Shown here one piece after another: positions 132-29,971 of a stretch of DNA of 32,162 bases; position 1 is the stretch's first letter, and each line of letters begins with the position of its first letter. The DNA comes from Rhodothermales bacterium (lineage in GTDB: Bacteria > Bacteroidota > Rhodothermia > Rhodothermales > UBA10348). The stretch lies in the NCBI GenBank assembly GCA_017859335.1, contig JAFMNH010000017.1:1-32162 (forward strand). Reading direction: 5' to 3'. Both the position numbers and the translations under genes were made by a program. The notes beneath the pieces are model-generated. The model was not told where the DNA came from. It made no database searches and saw only the letters and a list, made by a program, of their open reading frames with translations.

Positions 132-800
132 ATGCCGCTATCACATCCCAAACGCATTTTTTTGGTGGACGACCATCCGTTGATTCGCAGAGGCCTCCGA
201 TTGACCTTGGAGACAGAGACTGATTTGATGGTCTGTTGTGAGGCAAGCTCTACGGAAGAAGCTGTATCCTATCTCCCGGAACTGGATCCCGATATCGTCA
301 TGCTGGATGTTTCCTTGCCGGGTGCCAGTGGCTTGGAATTGCTTCACTACATGGTCCACAACGGATTTCACTGGCGTGTTCTGGTCGTTTCACGTCACGA
401 TGAGATGCTCTATGCCGAGCGCGCCATCCGCTCCGGTGCGCGTGGTTACGTTATGAAATCGGAAGCGCCGGCCACGATCATTGCTGCTGTTCGGACTGTC
501 CTGTCGGGGAAACTGTACGTCTCAGATGCGATGAACGAACGCTTGCTGACCGGATTTGCGGCAGCGGGGCTGCCTGCCATCCATCAGTCCCCATCCGACC
601 TCTTGTCCAAACGGGAGTTGGAAGTCCTTGAAATGACGGGGCGTGGCTTGGGCACGCGCCTTATCTCCGATCGCTTGGCCCTGTCCATCAAGACAGTTGA
701 ATCCTACCGGGCGCGGATAAAGTTCAAACTTAACCTCACAACCGCCTCCGAGTTGGTCCAGCATGCGGTGCAATGGACGGAGAGTCAAGCCGAGAGGTAA
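132..800 (+). CDS. Two-component response regulator, NarL/LuxR family
   Basis: Transcription factor with an N-terminal receiver domain (about residues 8-125) and a C-terminal LuxR-type helix-turn-helix (about 157-215). The receiver keeps the acidic pair D13/D14, the likely phosphoacceptor D59 in MLDVSLPG, and the conserved lysine K109 in VMKSEAP. The HTH shows the family pattern LSKRELEVLEM ... IKTVESYRARI. I chose the ATG at 132 (222 aa) because GAGGGAGA lies about seven bases upstream and the receiver fold begins right after it. The same frame offers a GTG at 72 that would add 20 residues. No sensor kinase is visible in the window, so the signal and target genes are unknown. It converges with the FKBP gene, with only 27 bases between the stop codons. 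Confidence 0.9.
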   Translation: MPLSHPKRIFLVDDHPLIRRGLRLTLETETDLMVCCEASSTEEAVSYLPELDPDIVMLDVSLPGASGLELLHYMVHNGFHWRVLVVSRHDEMLYAERAIRSGARGYVMKSEAPATIIAAVRTVLSGKLYVSDAMNERLLTGFAAAGLPAIHQSPSDLLSKRELEVLEMTGRGLGTRLISDRLALSIKTVESYRARIKFKLNLTTASELVQHAVQWTESQAER

Positions 801-827
801 GCCCCGTTCGCGGGATGCCAGGTACTG

Positions 828-1580
828 TTAGTCCGGCGCCTTGACCAGCTCTACAAGGCGGATATCAAAAATGAGGACGGCGAACGGTGGCACGGCTGAT
901 CCTGCTCCGTATGGGCCGTAAGCAAGAACCGGTGGAATGGTAAGGCGGCGTGTACCACCGACTTTCATACCAGGAATGCCTTGGTCCCAGCCCGGGATGA
1001 CGTTACCGCGGCCAAGGGTGAACTGGAAAAGGGTTCCTGTCAGGTTGGTCGAGTCGAACACATCCCCATTGCGCAACTGTCCCGTGTATTCGACGAAAAG
1101 GACGTCATTGGCCTCTGCCACTTCGCCGTCTCCCTCGATGGTGTCCTCGACAATTACCTCATCAAACACGTCAAGCACTGTCACATCGTAGATCACATCC
1201 GTGTTAGGAGGGACAGCACAGGTTCCGTCGGAAAAACACTGTCCTGACCGTCCAAACGCCAGATGCGAGGGTATTTCCAGTCGCCGGGTACCTCCAACGC
1301 GCATCCCGCCAAGCCCCTCGTCCCAGCCCTTGAGTACCTGACCGACGCCCAACGTGAAGATCCAATCTTCCCCTAGCTCCTCCGAGGAGTCGAAGGACGA
1401 CCCATCGGCAAACCGGCCCACGTAGGACGTGATGAGTGTCATGCCAGGCTCTACGACCACGCCGGTACCTTCCTCAAGATCGGTGACGACCAGGGAGCCA
1501 TTCGGGCCATCGTTGCTGTCGCATGCCGTCAGTGCGAGAGACAGAAGCAGGACGAAAGAGGCATTAAGGATGGACTTCAT
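828..1580 (-). CDS. Tandem FKBP-type peptidyl-prolyl isomerase lipoprotein
   Basis: Predicted lipid-anchored prolyl isomerase with two FKBP domains in one chain (about residues 35-138 and 148-246). The start at 1580 gives a 250-aa protein with a classic lipoprotein signal ending LTAC at C20; the frame extends 10 codons upstream. Both domains keep the FKBP core: an aromatic in SYVG/VEYTG, F-D in SSFDSS/DVFDS, GW-D in LKGWDEG/IPGWDQG, and G-RRL-IP. Domain 1 has a two-cysteine insertion, C115 and C121, in the loop before AVPPN, where domain 2 has GAGSAVPP; a disulfide is plausible in the oxidising periplasm. The role is probably folding assistance for exported proteins. It is transcribed away from mdh's stop and is separated from mdh by a hairpin. 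Confidence 0.9.
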   Translation of the reverse strand: MKSILNASFVLLLSLALTACDSNDGPNGSLVVTDLEEGTGVVVEPGMTLITSYVGRFADGSSFDSSEELGEDWIFTLGVGQVLKGWDEGLGGMRVGGTRRLEIPSHLAFGRSGQCFSDGTCAVPPNTDVIYDVTVLDVFDEVIVEDTIEGDGEVAEANDVLFVEYTGQLRNGDVFDSTNLTGTLFQFTLGRGNVIPGWDQGIPGMKVGGTRRLTIPPVLAYGPYGAGSAVPPFAVLIFDIRLVELVKAPD

Positions 1581-1671
1581 GGCGCAATCGAGAGTCGGGA
1601 GAAAGGTCACGTAGCGTGGCTAGGCCGGGATCGGGGTGCGGGTGCGTCCCACATGAGCATAAGGCGAAGAT

Positions 1672-1700
1672 ACGGGCGGGCGCTTTCAGCGCCCGCCCGT
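1672..1700 (-). terminator. Strong hairpin downstream of malate dehydrogenase
   Basis: A perfect 13-bp inverted repeat, 1672-1684 against 1688-1700, with a three-base loop. It is almost entirely G/C and sits 28 bases after the mdh stop and before the FKBP start. On the minus strand it is followed by a mixed pyrimidine-rich stretch (ATCTTCGCCTT) rather than a clean T run. It may be an intrinsic terminator or a 3'-end stabilising hairpin for mdh mRNA. Confidence 0.55.
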
Positions 1701-1728
1701 ACATGGCTGTAGCGGCGGAAAGGGACCG

Positions 1729-2706
<978 letters not shown>

Positions 2707-2935
2707 CTACGATTTGCCGCGGCGGGGACCTGCGACCGGGTTGCCAATATTTCGCAAAAATCCGGCCTGATGTTCTGATCTATACGGGGATGATTGTTGG
2801 AAAACCGTCAGGCGCATCAGGCGTTTGTAGTGGTAATCGTTGTTCGAAGCCATCGGCCCAAGGGTGTCGGCATCGCTTGATGCGATTATCCGAGCAAATG
2901 GATCACGTTACACCCAGCCTCCAACGCATCGGGTC

Positions 2936-4636
2936 ATGTCAGCTCTGCAGGCCATACTCTCCGACCATGACAGCGTCGTCATAACGGATACGGAGACGAC
3001 TGGCGTCAACGCGCATACCCATCGGATCATCGAAGTGGCCGGCATGCGCGTGCCCGGCGTAGGCGAGGCGTCCCAGTTTTCGGAGCTCGTGAATCCGTGC
3101 TCCAGCGTACCCCGACGCATTACCCGCATCACGGGTATCACGACAGCCATGGTCTTCGACAAGCCGACAGCGTCGGACATCATGCCCCGATTCCTGGCGT
3201 TTCTGGGTGATGGAGTTTTCGTTGCACATAACATTCGTTTTGACTGGTCGTTCGTGAATGCGGAGCTGGAGCGTGCCGGGCTGTCCCCGATGACCAATCG
3301 GGGTCTTTGCACCCTGAAGCTGGCGCGAAGGCTGCTCCCGGGTCTGCGCTCAAAAAGTCTCGGGAGTCTGGCCGCTTTCTACCGCATTCCAGCAGAGGGA
3401 CGTCATCGCGCGCAGAAAGATGTCGAGGTGACCGCTCAGGTTTTCGAGCGCTTCTGTGAGATGGTCATCGATGAGCACGGTATTTCCGACATCGACGAGC
3501 TGATTGCCCTGCAGGGCCGGACGTATGCCCGCGTCAATCCGCATTCTGCCCACGTAGTGGCCATCAAGCGGGATCGGCTGACAGCCTTGCCTCAGTGCCC
3601 GGGTGTCTACTACATGCTTGATGGACGAGGCAAGGTGCTCTACGTGGGCAAGGCGAAGGACCTGTCCAAGCGGGTTGCCTCCTATTTCAATGCCATTGAG
3701 GCACACCCCCCTCGTATTCGCCGGCTGATTGCCAAGGTGCGTGATGTCCGCTGGGAGGAGCAGCCTACGGAGCTTCATGCCCTCATTGAGGAGAGCCGGG
3801 AAATCAAACGGCTGGACCCTTCATTCAATCGTGCCCAGAAAAAATACGTCCCAAGACCCTACCTGCGACTCGATTCGCGGGAGCCGTTTCCACGGCTGAC
3901 GGTCCAGGTCATCATGAGGGATGATGGGGCCGAGTATTTTGGACCGCTTCGCAGCCGACGTCAGGCCCACTCGCTGCTGGAGCTGCTGGAAGCCTGCTTC
4001 CCCTTGCGCACCTGTTCGCCGGCAGAGTATGAGCGGGGGAGGCGCTGCATGCGTGCGGATATCGGCCGATGTGGTGCTCCCTGCGAGGGGGCCATGGATG
4101 GAAGTACCTATGCTGACATTCTTCAGGATGTGCGACGTTTCCTGGCAGGCGACGTCGAGGAGATTTCCCGGCAATTGGAGTCTGCCATGCTTGAGGCCGC
4201 TGAGGAGCACCGCTTCGAGCAGGCTGCTGCCTTCCGTGATTGGATGGAGCTTCTGGAAAGGCAACTCTCCAAGGGCGGAGCCATCGCGCAGGACGTTGCG
4301 GGACCGGAAGTCATCCACTTTCTGGGGGAAACAGCCCTCGAACGATCCACGCTCGTCATCGTTGCCCTCGGCCGCATCCATACGCTCGAGGCACCCGAGA
4401 GGGGTTCGGCAGGCGAAGCAATTATTCGCGATACCCTGCGTGAACTCGACATGTCCGCGACTGCTGGGTCCGGTATCAGTCCGTTCGAGGCCGACGCCAG
4501 AAGGGTCCTTGATCATTGGCTGACGATGCATCGCGATGCCATCGTGACGATCGAGCGACGAGAAGACGAACCACGCCCTCTGTTTGCCGAGCGGGCCGAA
4601 AGCATGATCAGCATGCACCTCGATGCCGGCGTCTGA
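2936..4636 (+). CDS. DEDDh exonuclease fused to a UvrC-like GIY-YIG nuclease
   Basis: Predicted DNA repair nuclease, 566 aa from the ATG at 2936. Residues about 14-170 form a DnaQ/PolIII-epsilon exonuclease: D18-E20 in TDTETTG, D103 in HNIRFDW, and H157/D162 in HRAQKDVEV. Residues about 217-300 form a UvrC-type GIY-YIG domain (GVYYML ... YVGKAKDLSKR). Next come four cysteines, C360, C371, C379 and C383, spaced like the UvrC iron-sulfur ligands, then a UVR-like helix pair (about 409-444). UvrC's C-terminal RNase H endonuclease and HhH domains are absent; the last 120 residues are unrecognised. DnaQ-GIY-YIG fusions are known in other phyla. A TTG at 2840 would add 32 residues, but the exonuclease fold does not need them. 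It likely acts in incision or end processing. Confidence 0.88.
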   Translation: MSALQAILSDHDSVVITDTETTGVNAHTHRIIEVAGMRVPGVGEASQFSELVNPCSSVPRRITRITGITTAMVFDKPTASDIMPRFLAFLGDGVFVAHNIRFDWSFVNAELERAGLSPMTNRGLCTLKLARRLLPGLRSKSLGSLAAFYRIPAEGRHRAQKDVEVTAQVFERFCEMVIDEHGISDIDELIALQGRTYARVNPHSAHVVAIKRDRLTALPQCPGVYYMLDGRGKVLYVGKAKDLSKRVASYFNAIEAHPPRIRRLIAKVRDVRWEEQPTELHALIEESREIKRLDPSFNRAQKKYVPRPYLRLDSREPFPRLTVQVIMRDDGAEYFGPLRSRRQAHSLLELLEACFPLRTCSPAEYERGRRCMRADIGRCGAPCEGAMDGSTYADILQDVRRFLAGDVEEISRQLESAMLEAAEEHRFEQAAAFRDWMELLERQLSKGGAIAQDVAGPEVIHFLGETALERSTLVIVALGRIHTLEAPERGSAGEAIIRDTLRELDMSATAGSGISPFEADARRVLDHWLTMHRDAIVTIERREDEPRPLFAERAESMISMHLDAGV

Positions 4637-16503: not shown

Positions 16504-18546
16504 CTAATTGGTGCCATGTTGGTTTCTGACAAATCGATCAGAAGAGAAGGCCAGGGTCAATCGAATGGCCAGCTGCTCTTGCACACCCGCAGGATGGATG
16601 CCAAGCGGCCGGTCCGGCAGGTTGATGAGGGCCACCACGGCCTTTCCATATCCAGAGAACAGGGTCTTGCCCACGGAAGCGTCCACCACGATGTGCGGGG
16701 GCACTGTGGTCCGCGCGGGCTCCCGATATTCCGGCCACGTCCATCGGGAGCGGTAACCCAGGCGCACGAACCAGCTCACGCCACCAGCCCATTCATCGCT
16801 TGCGCTGACACCGAAGCGATGTCGAGGGAAGCCCGTCTGGTGACGAAAAAAAACATCATCTCCCTCGGAGGACACGTGGTAGAACTGCAGGAAGCTACGA
16901 AGCGCGATTCCGCTTTCAGCACGCCATTCCATTCCCACGCTGCGTGAAAACAACCAGCCCCCATGGGGAGCAGACCAGGACCAGGAGGGAAGCAGAGGAC
17001 CGATTCCAAAACGCTGGTCGATAATGCGATCCGGCATCAGATGCCCCCCCATCCACCGTATGCGTCCATCCACCCAACCGCTCCAGTGTCGGGTCAGCGA
17101 TCGGTTGGCCGTAGCGCCGAGATCGAGGGAGCGGGGAAGGGTACCCGACCCACCGAAGGGCGGCAAGGACATCCAGTCGCCGAGGTCCACCCCGGCTTCT
17201 GCCCATTCCGAGAGCTGGCCCGGCTCGGGAAACCGTCCGGCGGCATACTGAAGGGCCAGTTGCAGCCACCCATTGTCGTCCCGGTAACGGAGGCTCCCTT
17301 CGGAGAAGCTGCTAAGCGTTGCGCGCCGGGATGCCTCGGAGGGGATGCGCAGTATTTCGGCGGAGACGGTTGCCAGCCATGAACCGGATGAACGCGCCAT
17401 CTTTCCATGAATCGATGGCAGGAGCAGCGAACGGCCATGGCCGCCTTGCGAGATCCGGCTCGAGCGCAGGGCCATCCCGCCGCTCCAGTCGATGCCGCCC
17501 CAGCTCCTTTCCAGACGAAGCCGGACAGCCGATTGGGCAAGAGTAACCGGGGAGGGAAGGGTGATGTAGGACGGTCGATTGCCCGTCATTACCTCAGAGG
17601 CATCCACGTCCAGTCGAATCCGCACCGGATCCAGGTCAGCCCTAAGCTGTCCCACCATCCAGGATCGGGTCAGGCGGGAGGGCCACTCCCATCCGGCAGC
17701 CTCATGATAGGTGAAGCCCTTTCGGCGGGACTGTCCGGCCAGAAGATGACCGGTCCAATGATGTCCCTGGAACCGCAGTCGGGCAAAGGGAGAAAACTGG
17801 GTCACGATCGGCTGTGCGTCCTCCGCGTATGTTTGACGAACGCGACCGGAAATTCGATCGTCGGTCAGATGATGCAGATCGGTCTGAAGACCCGATTGCA
17901 CCATCCAACGACCGTTTCCCCAGCCGAGCCGTAACCACGTGGCAGGACCGCTGCGGTCCACATTGGTAAGCCGGGCATCAACGTGTTTAGCGGGACCTGG
18001 ATCTCCCGTCTCATTGATGAGCGCCATGGAGCCGGCCGCGTTCCAACCGGAGAGCATCGGAGTTTCCAATAACACGCGTCCTTCGGCCAAGCGCGCACCC
18101 GGCATGCTGTTGAGTCCGGGTATCCATGTCACGGAAAGCAGATCGCCCGGGGAGGCTGGAAGGCTCTCGGTAAGTACACGGTCCAAGACATGCGCAGGAA
18201 TTGCCACTCCGTCGAGGAAGATGGCGGGCGCCACTGGATGCATCCCTCCGAGGCCGGAACCCAAAAACCTCAGGGTGTAACGGTCCGGGCTCCAGGTTTC
18301 CACGGCAGGCATGGCGCGAAGGATCTCGGAGAGGCGAACGGCACCTGTGGCTTGGATTTCGGACTGCGTCAGGCTCCAGGGGGACCAGGCGGCGGCTTCT
18401 GCGTGGGCTACCTGGCCATGGGCAGGAGCGGAACGAAGGAATGCCACAAGGGCGAGCGTTACCAGTGCCCTGACCAGCGCAACCGTCATACCTGTGTTAA
18501 GGCGTCCTCGGGGAGACGCACCCGATATCCGGTAACACACCCTCAT
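16504..18546 (-). CDS. TonB-dependent-receptor-like outer-membrane plug/barrel protein
   Basis: A 680-aa exported outer-membrane protein. A signal peptide with a long N-region ends near AHGQ45. Residues about 60-163 resemble a receptor plug: LSEILRAMP, then LRFLGSGLGG, PAIFLDGVAIP and GARLAEGRVLLETP. The rest is a barrel of amphipathic strands rich in Trp and Arg, ending in a strand (QLAIRLTLAF) plus a 12-residue tail rather than a terminal aromatic. There is no N-terminal carboxypeptidase-like or secretin domain as in SusC proteins, and no clear TonB box. I prefer the ATG at 18546 because it overlaps the previous stop (ATGA); M20 at 18489 is a good alternative. The ligand is unknown. The TonB-like gene lies just beyond RsmF. 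Confidence 0.72.
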   Translation of the reverse strand: MRVCYRISGASPRGRLNTGMTVALVRALVTLALVAFLRSAPAHGQVAHAEAAAWSPWSLTQSEIQATGAVRLSEILRAMPAVETWSPDRYTLRFLGSGLGGMHPVAPAIFLDGVAIPAHVLDRVLTESLPASPGDLLSVTWIPGLNSMPGARLAEGRVLLETPMLSGWNAAGSMALINETGDPGPAKHVDARLTNVDRSGPATWLRLGWGNGRWMVQSGLQTDLHHLTDDRISGRVRQTYAEDAQPIVTQFSPFARLRFQGHHWTGHLLAGQSRRKGFTYHEAAGWEWPSRLTRSWMVGQLRADLDPVRIRLDVDASEVMTGNRPSYITLPSPVTLAQSAVRLRLERSWGGIDWSGGMALRSSRISQGGHGRSLLLPSIHGKMARSSGSWLATVSAEILRIPSEASRRATLSSFSEGSLRYRDDNGWLQLALQYAAGRFPEPGQLSEWAEAGVDLGDWMSLPPFGGSGTLPRSLDLGATANRSLTRHWSGWVDGRIRWMGGHLMPDRIIDQRFGIGPLLPSWSWSAPHGGWLFSRSVGMEWRAESGIALRSFLQFYHVSSEGDDVFFRHQTGFPRHRFGVSASDEWAGGVSWFVRLGYRSRWTWPEYREPARTTVPPHIVVDASVGKTLFSGYGKAVVALINLPDRPLGIHPAGVQEQLAIRLTLAFSSDRFVRNQHGTN

Positions 18547-19238
18547 TGGAGTATCCACCGTATCCATACTGGTGTCTGAATGGTCCAGGCGAGGCCTGCG
18601 CTGAGGCCTACGCTGTCCCACCGCGGGCGCGTGAGTACCCGCAGGACGCGGACCTCGGTGAACATGCCCAGACGACCGATGGCTCCACCCAGACGAAGCC
18701 AGGGGCCGACGATCATTTCGGATTCAAGGCGTCCGGGGGCTGTCGACGGGAGATCAAACAGCATGAACCGATTACCAAGCAACAGCCCTGCATGTACGGA
18801 GACGGGAGCCCGGGGGGCACTTGAAAAGCCAACCCCTGCGAGTATATCCGTGGTCTGTGCATCAGGCAGGTCCACCGTGGCCGGATTGCCTGACTGATCA
18901 ATCACATCAGGTACGTCATCCGCTCCTTGCCAGGCGCGATATGACACATCGAGGCGTATCCAGCCTCGGCCGTAGCGTGTATCCACGGACAGCCTCAGAT
19001 CAGAACCCGGCGACCAACCCGGCATGCCGCTCTGCTGCAGAAGGGTACCGCTCGAAACGGCAATGCGGAGCGAGGAGAATGACGCGTCGGAAGGGGCCTC
19101 CTGAGCGTGTACAGTTGTCACAGGAACAAGACATACGAGGGTAAGCGCCGTGAACAGCAACTGACGGACTTCGGCAAACAGCCGGGCAGGGGAATACCAA
19201 CGTTCACAACCGATCAGCCGAGTAGGCATGGGCATCAC
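18543..19238 (-). CDS. Exported protein of unknown function, likely small beta-barrel
   Basis: I do not recognise a family. The 231-aa protein (GTG at 19238, or ATG at 19235) has a signal peptide ending about VHAQ46 and no further membrane helix. The mature part alternates hydrophobic and polar residues with many Gly and aromatic positions, for example GRGWIRLDVSYRAW and VSVHAGLLLGNRFMLF, as in outer-membrane beta-barrels of 8-10 strands. It ends WTIQTPVWIRWILQ, a plausible terminal strand. It overlaps the Wzi-like stop (GTGA) and its own stop overlaps the plug-barrel start (ATGA), so the three genes are translationally coupled. A role as an accessory to one of its two barrel neighbours is inferred. 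Confidence 0.75.
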   Translation of the reverse strand: MMPMPTRLIGCERWYSPARLFAEVRQLLFTALTLVCLVPVTTVHAQEAPSDASFSSLRIAVSSGTLLQQSGMPGWSPGSDLRLSVDTRYGRGWIRLDVSYRAWQGADDVPDVIDQSGNPATVDLPDAQTTDILAGVGFSSAPRAPVSVHAGLLLGNRFMLFDLPSTAPGRLESEMIVGPWLRLGGAIGRLGMFTEVRVLRVLTRPRWDSVGLSAGLAWTIQTPVWIRWILQ

Positions 19239-20773: not shown

Positions 20774-20856
20774 GAAGCGAGCAAACGAACAGAACCTTAG
20801 CACAGTTTCATGGGTATGCACGCGCTGAATCCCCGGAGCCGAACCTACCGCCCTCC

Positions 20857-22260
20857 TTGACCCGCAACGTCGAGCTTACTGCCCTCATCCTGATGGATGC
20901 CCTGGCAACGCTGATTGCCAACCGGTTGTGGTATCTGGCCCGTTTCGAGTGGGAATGGTTGGCAGAGCCGGTATTGGTACCCGATCCGACCGTCACCAAT
21001 CTGATGATCGTTCTCCTGACGGGTTTCTGGTTGGTTGTGTTCATGTTCTTCGGGCTGTACCGGGAACGCTACGCATCGTCCCGGTTCGATGAGCTGGTGA
21101 CGGTTGTCAAGGTAGTTACCGTCGGGATTCTGGTGCTCTTCCTGCTTCTTTTCGTCGAGAACCTCGACCCTCATTCTGCTCGGTCGAACATCCTGGCCTA
21201 CTGGGCGGCCATCATCCTCTTTGTGGCCCTCGGGCGTGTTCTCGTTCGTTCCGTACAGAAACGATTGATTCTTAAGGGAAAGGGACTCCATCGAGCACTC
21301 ATCGTTGGATGGTCTGATGTCGTGGACTCCCTCTACGAGGAGGTGGCCCGCTATCCAGAGGCTGGATTGTCCATTGTAGGCGCCGTACGGCTTCAGCGGA
21401 ACGAGCTCGAAGGCGCATCCCCACCGGAGGCGCCCGTGGGTCATCGGGTCTCTGATCTGCCTCGTCTCATCGATGACCTCGATGTCCAGGATGTACTCAT
21501 TGCACTTGGTCCGGACGATGCCGACCAACTCATGGAGGTACTCAGGTTGACTGATGGCAAGCCCGTAACCCTCAAGCTGGTGCCCGATTTTTACTCCATC
21601 ATCGGCGGGATGGCTCGTACCGAGCACATGTATGGGCTGCCTCTCATCGAGGTCATGCCCGAGCCCATGCAGGCGTGGGAGCAGAGCCTGAAGCGCCTCA
21701 TGGATTTCGTCGTGTCCCTGGTCGTGCTTGTGGCTGGATTACCCGTCTGGATCCTGATCGGGTTGGTCATCAAACTGACAAGTCCGGGGCCCGTCATCTA
21801 CCGACAGCGCCGCATCGGTCAGAAAGGGAAAGAGTTCACCATGTACAAATTCCGTACGATGGATGAAGACGCCGAGGCGCACACGGGTCCTGTCTGGGCG
21901 ACCGAGGACGATCCGCGCTACACGTCTGTCGGACGCTGGCTGCGGAAAACCCGTCTGGATGAGGTCCCCCAGTTCGTGAATGTCCTCCTGGGCAGCATGT
22001 CCTTGGTTGGGCCCCGGCCTGAGCGCCCATACTTTGTGGAAAAGCTGGCAAAACAGATTCCCCTGTACTCACGCAGGCACCGGGTCAAGCCGGGTATTAC
22101 GGGTTGGGCACAGGTCAAGTGGAAGTACGACAGCAGTCTGGAAGATGTACAGCAAAAGGTCAAATATGACTTGTTCTACATCGAAAACATGAGTCTGCGG
22201 AGGGATTTGCAGATTCTGTTCCGCACTCTGCACACGGCTCTCAAGGGGAGTGGTCGTTGA
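20857..22260 (+). CDS. Polyprenyl glycosylphosphotransferase (WcaJ/WbaP family)
   Basis: A 467-aa membrane enzyme that starts a polysaccharide repeat unit by moving a sugar-1-phosphate onto undecaprenyl phosphate. Four N-terminal helices (to about 130) are followed by a nucleotide-binding-like domain (about 143-260). The C-terminal bacterial sugar transferase domain begins with KRLMD (279-283). It has PVIYRQRRIGQKGKEFTMYK, then KFRTMDED, the catalytic DE pair in RLDEVPQF (368-369), SLVGPRPER and KPGITGWAQVKWKYD. The sugar is not predictable (Glc, Gal or FucNAc types share these motifs). The TTG at 20857 is needed to keep the first helix; ATG at 20893 would start inside it. It is divergent from the Wzi-like gene. 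Confidence 0.93.
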   Translation: MTRNVELTALILMDALATLIANRLWYLARFEWEWLAEPVLVPDPTVTNLMIVLLTGFWLVVFMFFGLYRERYASSRFDELVTVVKVVTVGILVLFLLLFVENLDPHSARSNILAYWAAIILFVALGRVLVRSVQKRLILKGKGLHRALIVGWSDVVDSLYEEVARYPEAGLSIVGAVRLQRNELEGASPPEAPVGHRVSDLPRLIDDLDVQDVLIALGPDDADQLMEVLRLTDGKPVTLKLVPDFYSIIGGMARTEHMYGLPLIEVMPEPMQAWEQSLKRLMDFVVSLVVLVAGLPVWILIGLVIKLTSPGPVIYRQRRIGQKGKEFTMYKFRTMDEDAEAHTGPVWATEDDPRYTSVGRWLRKTRLDEVPQFVNVLLGSMSLVGPRPERPYFVEKLAKQIPLYSRRHRVKPGITGWAQVKWKYDSSLEDVQQKVKYDLFYIENMSLRRDLQILFRTLHTALKGSGR

Positions 22261-27025: not shown

Positions 27026-29971
27026 CTACTCAGTGGATTGCACGGCGTCATTGAGGCCTTTCTCAAGCGCGTTGAAGGCCGCATTCGCGACCGCTGGCCG
27101 CAGCGGAATGTGTTTACGATTCTGCCGTGTCGGATACACGCGATTGGTCAGCAGGATGACATAAAGGTGCGAATCCGGGTCATACCAGAAAGAGGTACCC
27201 GTAAAGCCCGTGTGCCCGAACGAACGGGGACCAAAACGCGAGCCGGCGGACGAGTAGCCCGTCATACTCTTGGTGTCCCACCCAAGAGCCCTCGTGTGGC
27301 GTCCTTCCGGATCCGTGCGCTCCGTGAAGCGACGGATGGTTTCGGGTTTCAGGAAGGGTCTATCACCCACAAGACCCTCTCTGGACAGCATGCCGGCGAA
27401 TCGGGTAAGATCCCTTATGGTGGAAAAAAGACCTGCGTGACCCGCGGTTCCGCCGAGCAACCAGGCCGTTTCGTCATGCACCTCGCCCTGCAGGGTTCGT
27501 CTCCGGAAGTAATCATCGACCTCGGTTGGCACCGCCCGATCAAGCCCCCTGTTCCGATTGCTCATGTAGCCTGTTGAAACCATCGAAAGGGGCTCAAAAA
27601 CTCGGCGTGCAACAAAGTCATCAAAAGGCTCGCCCGTGATGGCCTCCGTCATCCAGGCCAGTGTAATTGGACCGAAGTCCGAGTATCTGGATTGACTTCC
27701 CGGCTGGTAGGCCAAGGTATCCGAAAGGATACGCTGTCGAACCTCAGCGCCGGTGCGGACACCACGCATGTGGAAGGGTATGAACGGGATCAATCCACCT
27801 ACGTGGGACAACAGATCGCGTACCGTGACCATGCCTTTACCGTTTTGGCCGAAAGCTGGCAGGTAGTCGGCCACCGGGCGGTCCAGATCCACGAGGCCAT
27901 CCTCGACAAGAAGCATGATGGCCGTGGTTGTCGATATCACTTTCGTAAGCGATGCCAGATCGAACACATCCTGTTCCCTGATGGGACGCTTGCGCTCGAA
28001 CGTGTGATAGCCATGCACCTGCTGGTGGGCTACGGTCAGATCGCGCCCGACAGCCAGTGCCGCAGTTGGGAAGGCACTGTCCGAGACGGCCCGATCAAGC
28101 AGAGGGACGAGGTCGTTCAGGATGACTTCATCAAGGGAAACCGAGCCTGCGGGGCCAACAGAGGCGAAAGAAGGCTGTGTTTGCATCCCACTGCCGCGCG
28201 GCCAGGCGGGAGGAACGTTCACGGGTAGCCGACCGCTCGAACCCGAGAGGCCGAACAGGACATCGGCCGAAGCCGCGGCCATGGCATCCGAGGCATCGTA
28301 ACTCTGCACGACGAGGGCCGAAGCGGGAAGCACGCTCGGAAGGGCATAGGGCTTGCTGAAGCTCACGTACACGATGCGGGCCCCACCTGAGGACAACTCC
28401 TTCACGAACCGGGAGGGGTCCCAGCCGGCAACAGGCGTATTCCCCGTGTAGTCGGCAATGATGATCGTCCTGCTCGTCGAAGCGCTTCGCTGCAACACGG
28501 ACATCCTTGAAGCCCAGGAACGGGGAGAGACTTCAATATGGGCAATGGATTGCCCCTTTCGGTCCTCCAATTCCCTCCTGAATCGAGCTGCGGGTCCGTC
28601 CGGGCCCCGATTCCGATCCCGGTAGTCGATGGAGATCAACACTGTGCGTTCGCCGGTCGGAAGGGGGAGCACGTCATCATTCTTGAGTACCGTTACTGCA
28701 TCCCGAGCCATGGCTGTCATGGCCTGCTTGGTTTTAGTCTGCTCCTGCGCCGAAAAGAGGGCTTCCAGACTCCCTGCCTGGGGTTCTGAAGCCTGGTCGA
28801 ATCGTTCCTTCTGCTCGAGGATGCGATGCACCGAGCTGTCGATTCGTGCCACAGGAATCCGCCCCTGCCGAATGGCCTGGATAATGGCCTTTTTGGTGTT
28901 CTCCTCGTCTGGAGGCATGAGAAGTACGTCGGCACCGGCCAGGATAGCGCGAATACTGCGTTCTGCCGGCGAACCAGCCCGTGCAGCCCCTGCCATGTTC
29001 AAGGCGTCCGTAAAGACCAGTCCGTTAAAGGCAAGCGAATCTCGCAGCAGGCGGGTCACGATGTGGGGGCTGAAGGTAGCCGCGGTAGTGTCCTCATATT
29101 CATGACCCCTCGGGACGATATGCGCCGTCATGACGGCTGCTCCCGAGCTCTTCATGAGCCGGCGGAAAGGGGCCACGTGCACCGAATCAAACTCCGCTGG
29201 GGATGAGGTGGCAACAGGCAGGTCCGTGTGTGAATCCCGGGTAGTTCCGCCATGCCCCGGGAAGTGCTTCATGACAGGAAGAAGTCCCGCTTCAGTGACA
29301 CCTTCCATGAAAGCCCCTGCGTAGACAATCACCGAGTCGGGACTGTCTGACCACGAGCGTGTGCCAATCACCGGATTGGATGGATGGACGTTCACATCGA
29401 CCGTGGGAGCGAAGAGGACATTGACTCCGACTGATGAGGCCTCCTGTGCAGTAATACGACCACTCGTTCGTGCATGGGAAGGCCTGCCTGTGGCCGCGAT
29501 GGCCATGGCGTCCGGGAAGCGGCCCAAGCCCTCAAGGCGATACCCTGCACCCCACTCCGCATCGAGCCCGACCAACAGGGGTAGATCCGAGACGTGTTGC
29601 GCCCATGACGTGGCTACGGCAGATGTCAGGGCCTCACCCGCAAACAGGATGACACCTCCCGGTTGTAGGCGCTCCAGGCGTTCTTTCATGCGAAGTCGAT
29701 CGGATGGATCAGGCACCGCCCCAGGCGGCATCAGCTCAACCATCATCATCTGTCCGACCTTCTCTTCAAGCGTCAACGACTGAAGCACCGAGTCGGCCCA
29801 GGTCCCTTCCGGTGGGGGCGTTGTCCGGGCCGGAGACTGATGGCACGCAGGCAGCAGGAAAAGCCCAAGCACGCACAGCCAGATCAACCGGTGAGGCTCG
29901 GTTGGAAGGCTCTTGGGTGAATCAGAATTGTCGGTTAAGACGCTTCGGCACGATATCAGGATGCAACTCAC
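27026..29971 (-). CDS. Lipoprotein fusing GH3 N-acetylhexosaminidase to class C beta-lactamase fold
   Basis: A 981-aa envelope protein with a lipoprotein signal ending LLPAC at C43. Residues about 57-395 are a GH3 domain of NagZ type: KHFPGHGGTTRDSHTDLP supplies the Asp246-His248 acid/base dyad, and nucleophile D322 lies in FTDALNM. A GH3 C-terminal domain (about 420-595) follows. Residues about 613-970 are a serine hydrolase of the class C beta-lactamase/PBP group: S674-x-x-K677 (ASLTKV), Y763 in YSDFG and GHTGFTG. It probably trims cell-wall muropeptides: the GH3 part cuts beta-GlcNAc links, and the second domain may act on the peptide or on D-amino acid bonds. Such fusions are known in Bacteroidota. 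The GTG at 29971 is uncertain; a TTG nearer the signal is possible. Confidence 0.9.
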   Translation of the reverse strand: MSCILISCRSVLTDNSDSPKSLPTEPHRLIWLCVLGLFLLPACHQSPARTTPPPEGTWADSVLQSLTLEEKVGQMMMVELMPPGAVPDPSDRLRMKERLERLQPGGVILFAGEALTSAVATSWAQHVSDLPLLVGLDAEWGAGYRLEGLGRFPDAMAIAATGRPSHARTSGRITAQEASSVGVNVLFAPTVDVNVHPSNPVIGTRSWSDSPDSVIVYAGAFMEGVTEAGLLPVMKHFPGHGGTTRDSHTDLPVATSSPAEFDSVHVAPFRRLMKSSGAAVMTAHIVPRGHEYEDTTAATFSPHIVTRLLRDSLAFNGLVFTDALNMAGAARAGSPAERSIRAILAGADVLLMPPDEENTKKAIIQAIRQGRIPVARIDSSVHRILEQKERFDQASEPQAGSLEALFSAQEQTKTKQAMTAMARDAVTVLKNDDVLPLPTGERTVLISIDYRDRNRGPDGPAARFRRELEDRKGQSIAHIEVSPRSWASRMSVLQRSASTSRTIIIADYTGNTPVAGWDPSRFVKELSSGGARIVYVSFSKPYALPSVLPASALVVQSYDASDAMAAASADVLFGLSGSSGRLPVNVPPAWPRGSGMQTQPSFASVGPAGSVSLDEVILNDLVPLLDRAVSDSAFPTAALAVGRDLTVAHQQVHGYHTFERKRPIREQDVFDLASLTKVISTTTAIMLLVEDGLVDLDRPVADYLPAFGQNGKGMVTVRDLLSHVGGLIPFIPFHMRGVRTGAEVRQRILSDTLAYQPGSQSRYSDFGPITLAWMTEAITGEPFDDFVARRVFEPLSMVSTGYMSNRNRGLDRAVPTEVDDYFRRRTLQGEVHDETAWLLGGTAGHAGLFSTIRDLTRFAGMLSREGLVGDRPFLKPETIRRFTERTDPEGRHTRALGWDTKSMTGYSSAGSRFGPRSFGHTGFTGTSFWYDPDSHLYVILLTNRVYPTRQNRKHIPLRPAVANAAFNALEKGLNDAVQSTE

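Follow-up and report, generated by a model that had tools for sequence, protein, structure and literature searches.

The question raised by this locus is why a bacterium should join a 3'-5' exonuclease to a shortened UvrC in one polypeptide, and whether such a protein could serve nucleotide excision repair (NER). The gene lies in the window, by which we mean the whole stretch of DNA that was analysed (32,162 nucleotides). The fusion is ordinary in kind, both its architecture and its proposed mechanism having been described already. Our new points are modest, namely a likeness of the C-terminal tail to UvrC and the repeated absence of a cysteine set beside intact active sites.

The plus-strand frame is open from 2840 to 4636 (598 codons). 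The ATG at 2936, residue 33 of this long frame, is the better start, since the frames of the relatives L008 and L009 are open only a few codons before the corresponding methionine and the alignment starts there. All residue numbers given here run from this ATG, and the features are collected in Table 1. The earlier note had placed a DEDDh exonuclease, a GIY-YIG nuclease and a UVR helix pair in the same protein, and Pfam detects each of them: RNase_T at residues 15-170 (E 3e-32), GIY-YIG at residues 222-288 (E 5e-5), and UVR at residues 412-442 (E 0.0012), the last at 18.9 bits and so below its cut-off of 21.5. Among solved structures in the PDB, the exonuclease domain matches chains of PolC and DnaQ, and the GIY-YIG part matches the UvrC N-terminal domain 1yd6; the match to the UvrC profile TIGR00194 begins at 3572. 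The four cysteines, which are residues 392, 403, 411 and 415 of the long frame, were also read correctly, their spacing of 11-8-4 being close to the 12-8-4 of E. coli K-12 UvrC (C154, C166, C174, C178), and the GIY-YIG domain, the cysteines and the UVR pair stand in the order known from UvrC. Neither PF08459, the catalytic RNase H domain, nor HhH was found in the fusion protein by Pfam at E<=1, or in the relatives L034, L022 and L094 at E<=5 (for L094 within the matched stretch of 424 residues only). PF08459 is matched strongly by E. coli UvrC and by the UvrC of the genome that carries the window. Structure prediction from the sequences of the window and L007-L009 gave a mean pLDDT of only 33.9, and no reading was drawn from it.

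Table 1. Features of the fusion gene, with positions counted in the window
Feature	Position	Strand	Remarks
DEDDh exonuclease / GIY-YIG / UVR fusion gene	2936..4636	+	566 aa; NF005906 / PRK07883 family
DEDDh 3'-5' exonuclease domain	2978..3445	+	residues 15-170; D18, E20, D103, H157, D162
UvrC-type GIY-YIG nuclease domain	3572..3829	+	residues 213-298; Y225, Y236, R246, E286, N298
Putative [4Fe-4S] cysteine set C360, C371, C379, C383	4013..4084	+	spacing 11-8-4
UVR helix pair, putative UvrB-binding element	4169..4261	+	residues 412-442
C-terminal ~119 residues, probable diverged PF22920 relative	4277..4633	+	E. coli UvrC ~265-367

The protein belongs to a curated family, NF005906 (PRK07883, "DEDD exonuclease domain-containing protein", an equivalog), which it matches at 543.8 bits against a cut-off of 495, with residues 13-557 aligned to positions 7-554 of the 563 in the profile. 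A score of this size to a nearly full-length family model argues that the architecture is not a product of chance. TIGR00194 (UvrC) reaches only 184 bits against its cut-off of 285.45, over positions 3-229 of 574, so that the protein is not a full-length UvrC; NF007833 (excinuclease Cho) was matched at E<=1e-50 by one of 84 homologs, the window protein not being that one. The UvrC half has its closest counterpart in UvrC, both in the curated families and in the solved structures. The same arrangement is listed as "Cho-like+Exo" in Table 1 of a 2006 survey of GIY-YIG nucleases (PMC1564403, here by excerpt), with an ExoIII domain in front and a C4 region and a UvrB-binding domain behind. The table has 11 bacterial members, and the excerpted text calls the variety specific to Actinobacteria. 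It also credits Van Houten, Eisen and Hanawalt (2002) with the proposal that, starting at the incision, the exonuclease degrades the damaged strand and passes through the lesion, so the mechanism suggested in the earlier note was already in print. Occurrence outside Actinobacteria is not new either, since a GIY-YIG domain-containing exonuclease in Bacteroidetes, with predicted LexA control, is mentioned in the accessible part of PMC8565304. We equate "Cho-like+Exo" here with NF005906 / PRK07883. No biochemical test of the activity of the family was found in the literature searched, which covered few of the subscription journals. The mycobacterial Rv2191 / Mb2214c, "dnaQ-uvrC", is presumably a member as well.

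The locus search gave seven relatives, three of which align along the entire protein at 71-73% identity (two carry the title Rhodothermales, the third that of an uncultured bacterium); the other four match the exonuclease part only and were left out. In the phylum of the window, 47 of 296 sampled genomes pass the NF005906 cut-off, and all 296 have a match at E<=0.001, a count that includes plain UvrC and DnaQ. Every one of the 31 sampled genomes of the order, its own included, matches at E 1.2e-121 or better. In the phylum of Streptomyces sp. CNH099, 44 of 149 genomes match the window protein at E<=1e-60; CNH099 itself has no match at that threshold. In the genome that carries the window, a full UvrC is encoded on a different contig; one UvrB and two UvrA are encoded as well, and all score over their family cut-offs. 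The two UvrA are full proteins on contigs C174 and C128 (1339 and 1131 bits), of which the second may, we presume, be a UvrA2-type paralog. UvrC was likewise found over its cut-off in all 60 genomes chosen for having a fusion-type protein, and in those 60 genomes the fusion is an addition to UvrC and no substitute for it.

On this basis we favor, with some reserve, a reading in which the fusion combines a paralogous, truncated UvrC with a DnaQ/PolC-type exonuclease and provides a second route of NER that is able to skip the 5' incision of UvrC. UvrA-UvrB would load at the lesion, and the UVR pair would bring the fusion to UvrB, a contact that is not assured given that UVR falls below the Pfam cut-off in the window protein. 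The GIY-YIG site would then nick the 3' side of the lesion, and the DEDDh domain would resect the lesion-bearing strand 3'-5' from the new 3'-OH and through the lesion, leaving a gap for polymerase and ligase to refill. Such resection would take the place of the 5' cut made by the catalytic RNase H domain of UvrC; because the chewing would proceed through the lesion, the missing 5' incision would be unnecessary. The cysteine set, if it bears a cluster, would modulate DNA binding, not catalysis. The sequence of 3' incision and 3'-5' digestion was put forward in the earlier note, and it fits the anatomy of the protein, the near-invariance of its active sites and the presence of UvrA, UvrB and UvrC in the genome; the iron-sulfur part of that proposal is the weaker one.

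The active sites were compared in an alignment of 123 homologs, comprising the window protein, its three full-length relatives, the best 30 from each of two phylum samples and 59 others; these 59 are what remained of 60 picked from the list for the window's phylum after one, the contig of L007, was dropped, and the set is not random. The DEDDh residues D18, E20, D103, H157 and D162 are invariant (123/123). For the GIY-YIG domain, all 123 have Y236 and N298, 122 have Y225, R246 and E286, and 120 have K239. These positions in both domains are taken by us to be the catalytic residues. One relative, L091, deviates at Y225, G238, K239, R246 and E286; L074 and L153 do so at K239 only. L091 (605-1891, minus strand) is a relative of 429 residues with an intact DEDDh site, a GIY-YIG site that looks decayed and no cysteine set, and is perhaps an exonuclease only. 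L041 (G272:C36) has an in-frame TGA and is possibly a broken copy or an assembly error.

The conservation of the exonuclease site also bears on a different role, that of a helper in the manner of Cho. The fusion would then offer an alternative 3' incision at lesions that UvrC handles badly, with UvrC making the 5' cut and the exonuclease trimming the end that is excised or nicked. The excerpt of PMC1564403 describes such a mode of action for E. coli Cho, and the UvrC found in each of the 60 chosen genomes would be at hand for the 5' cut, but an exonuclease site held in 123 of 123 homologs is more than a dispensable trimming step predicts, and we regard this explanation as rather unlikely.

The cysteine set is less well kept. 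All four cysteines stand at the columns of the window protein in 98 of the 123 homologs, and five more, all from the sample of the Streptomyces phylum, have the third cysteine shifted towards the fourth, so that 103 have four in total. Seven have three cysteines at the aligned columns (with a further cysteine close by in two of these, L088 and L179), and 13 lack the set. On a quick tree built from the sequence ahead of the cysteine region, which covers the exonuclease and GIY-YIG domains, and with 32 of 120 inner branches open, the distribution of kept and lacking sets needs at least five changes. This count does not separate loss from gain; we read absence as loss, because the set is present in UvrC, from which the UvrC half presumably derives. 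All seven members of the window's own clade have four cysteines. Elsewhere in the order the set is absent in all seven sampled genomes of one family (f7), and the first cysteine is missing in all five genomes of another (f2). The set is also missing from G135 and G183, two genomes that belong to the window's own family; their proteins fall outside the window's clade on the tree. Among seven shorter relatives from other families of the phylum (L084-L090, 437-489 aa), which keep the exonuclease and GIY-YIG domains and end sooner, four (L085, L086, L087 and L090) have a cysteine set spaced 13-8-4.

Is UvrC itself subject to the same change? A separate UvrC with four cysteines was present in all five genomes checked of the 13 without the set (G018, G135, G183, G167 and G073) and in all five checked of the seven with three cysteines (G003, G008, G050, G058 and G155). 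The change in these ten genomes is thus one of the fusion and not of UvrC too. Overall, 30 of 31 aligned UvrCs keep four cysteines, and the first spacing is longer in the separate UvrCs. Conservation of the cysteines in close homologs was the point on which the earlier note let its iron-sulfur reading depend. The nearest clade keeps all four, whereas further clades of the order lack some or all of them, and to that extent the finding counts against it.

Since the cysteine set has been shed while both active sites were held, any iron-sulfur cluster looks auxiliary rather than catalytic, with a part for example in DNA binding. The [4Fe4S] loop of UvrC is reported to take part in formation of the UvrC-DNA complex (PMC9426483, in an excerpt citing Silva et al. 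2020). It is conceivable, and we offer it tentatively, that the UvrC-type cysteine site is an optional regulatory part outside the incision machine, repeatedly lost or pared down in the fusion family while the active sites remained constrained and UvrC unchanged. If so, the enzymes with and without cysteines in a single order are a natural experiment on the role of the UvrC [4Fe-4S] cluster; variants of both kinds beside an unchanged UvrC allow one to ask what the iron-sulfur site of UvrC does.

The last 120 residues were unassigned in the earlier note, and a remote likeness can now be given for them. For 43 proteins of the window's phylum (the window protein, L007-L009, L014-L043 without L041, and L092-L101) the tails were made into a profile, which was compared with one of 31 UvrCs. 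With hhalign the tails are placed on E. coli UvrC ~265-367, which follows UVR, at a score of 34.0 (E 1.8e-4, probability 49%) when UvrC is taken from residue 236 on. The probability is 39% (E 3.1e-4) against full-length UvrC and 72% (E 3.5e-5) against UvrC 236-381 alone. The highest score in 199 scored of 200 column shuffles was 20.9, the reversed profile gave 19.9, and four other UvrC regions scored 9.1 to 21.6 against the tails. A search of the 31 UvrCs with the tail profile gave two hits, one at E 9e-10 and the other at 6.5e-4. In three fusion proteins the match to the UvrC family model continues into the tail as far as positions 338-360. Pfam calls the stretch after UVR in UvrC PF22920, a non-catalytic domain. 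PF22920 was detected in three of 84 homologs at E<=1, the best (E 0.012, in L034) being under the cut-off, and no match was obtained at E<=1 in the window protein itself; the assignment is therefore carried by the profile-profile test, Pfam PF22920 by itself being insufficient. The tails of 30 members from the actinobacterial side gave no significant match to UvrC (probability 0.5%). Most likely a PF22920-like domain has decayed into this tail; the homology is remote, and this is the weakest of our positive claims. The statement in the earlier note that the RNase H-like and HhH domains are missing accordingly needs a qualification: it holds for PF08459 and HhH, and the preceding RNase H-like PF22920 seems to persist in strongly diverged form. 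If the assignment is right, the UvrC half corresponds to a UvrC that ends immediately ahead of the catalytic domain for 5' incision.

The protein could also be a structure-specific nuclease with a role outside excision repair, for instance at stalled forks, at flaps or at intermediates of recombination; its GIY-YIG domain would nick there and its DEDDh domain would trim 3' ends. The weak UVR match in the window protein would suit such a role, as would the relatives of 429-489 aa, which are shorter behind the GIY-YIG domain, and the ten neighboring ORFs that were scanned, none of which was recognised as a repair gene. We consider it improbable all the same, given the closeness of the UvrC half to UvrC in both comparisons, with curated families and with solved structures, and the UVR match in 69 of the 84 homologs (Pfam, E<=1).

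The scanned genes around the fusion are ordinary, for example malate dehydrogenase, an FKBP isomerase and transporters, and the order of genes downstream of it is kept in L007 and L008. These neighbors, with the strong match throughout the sampled order, speak against a nuclease of anti-phage defence, which was suggested by matches to the PADLOC models DEDDh (E 4e-40) and PDC-S48 (E 2e-37). As both matches are confined to the exonuclease domain, the defence reading was rejected, and we give it very little credence.

Some other observations on the surroundings may be recorded. The malate dehydrogenase gene (mdh) lies directly before the fusion gene in the window and is ~2.6 kb away in L007. Just upstream of the fusion gene in L007 (~421-3001), L008 and L009 there is what we take, by eye, to be the end of a histidine-kinase ATPase domain. 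Further along the window, an ORF of 981 residues (27029-29971, minus strand) combines a glycoside hydrolase family 3 domain with a beta-lactamase-family domain (Pfam), and three ORFs of 705, 231 and 260 codons (16507-19238 and 20848-21627, minus strand), with no Pfam match at E<=0.001, adjoin a capsule-assembly Wzi-like protein. A scan with Rfam gave no match at the gathering score.

With LexA control predicted for such an exonuclease, the upstream regions of the window gene and of L007-L009 were searched for eight LexA-type patterns, including CTAA-N5-TTAG and GGA-N5-TTC, and for perfect 6-base dyads with gaps of 3-10 bases. Both named patterns appear in the accessible part of PMC8565304, GGA-N5-TTC for LexA control in Bacteroidetes. 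None of the motifs or dyads tried was present in the 299 upstream bases of the window gene or upstream of L008. The L007 region contains one GGA-N5-TCC and two dyads. The single GGA-N5-TTC of L009 lies about 35 bases ahead of its start codon, and that region also holds one dyad. We take these occurrences as chance, since motifs this short are found 24 and 16 times when one strand of the 32-kb window is scanned, and note the GGA-N5-TTC of L009 as a possible lead.

Among known systems the nearest is Cho-like+Exo, with which the window protein has in common the N-terminal ExoIII-type exonuclease, GIY-YIG, the four-cysteine region and UVR, both being without the EndoV/RNase H catalytic domain and HhH. 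The members in the excerpt of PMC1564403 are actinobacterial, whereas the window fusion comes from a genome nearest to named Rhodothermales, and for the latter we propose a diverged PF22920-like tail. With UvrC the fusion shares GIY-YIG, the C4 region, UVR and, weakly, PF22920, all in the same order. It differs in adding a DEDDh exonuclease in front and in being without HhH and PF08459, the site of 5' incision, whose D, D, D and H (E. coli UvrC 399, 438, 466 and 538) are kept in 31 of 31 UvrCs. E. coli Cho is likewise a truncated UvrC-like protein with GIY-YIG and four cysteines, for which a 3' incision is expected. Unlike the fusion, Cho has neither exonuclease nor UVR (Pfam), and its first cysteine spacing is longer; the excerpt of PMC1564403 describes its C-terminal domain as its own, whereas in the fusion UVR is in place and the tail resembles UvrC 265-367. 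Finally, DnaQ and PolC have the DEDDh domain and its residues in common with the window protein, in which the exonuclease is fused to a nicking domain and not set in a polymerase.
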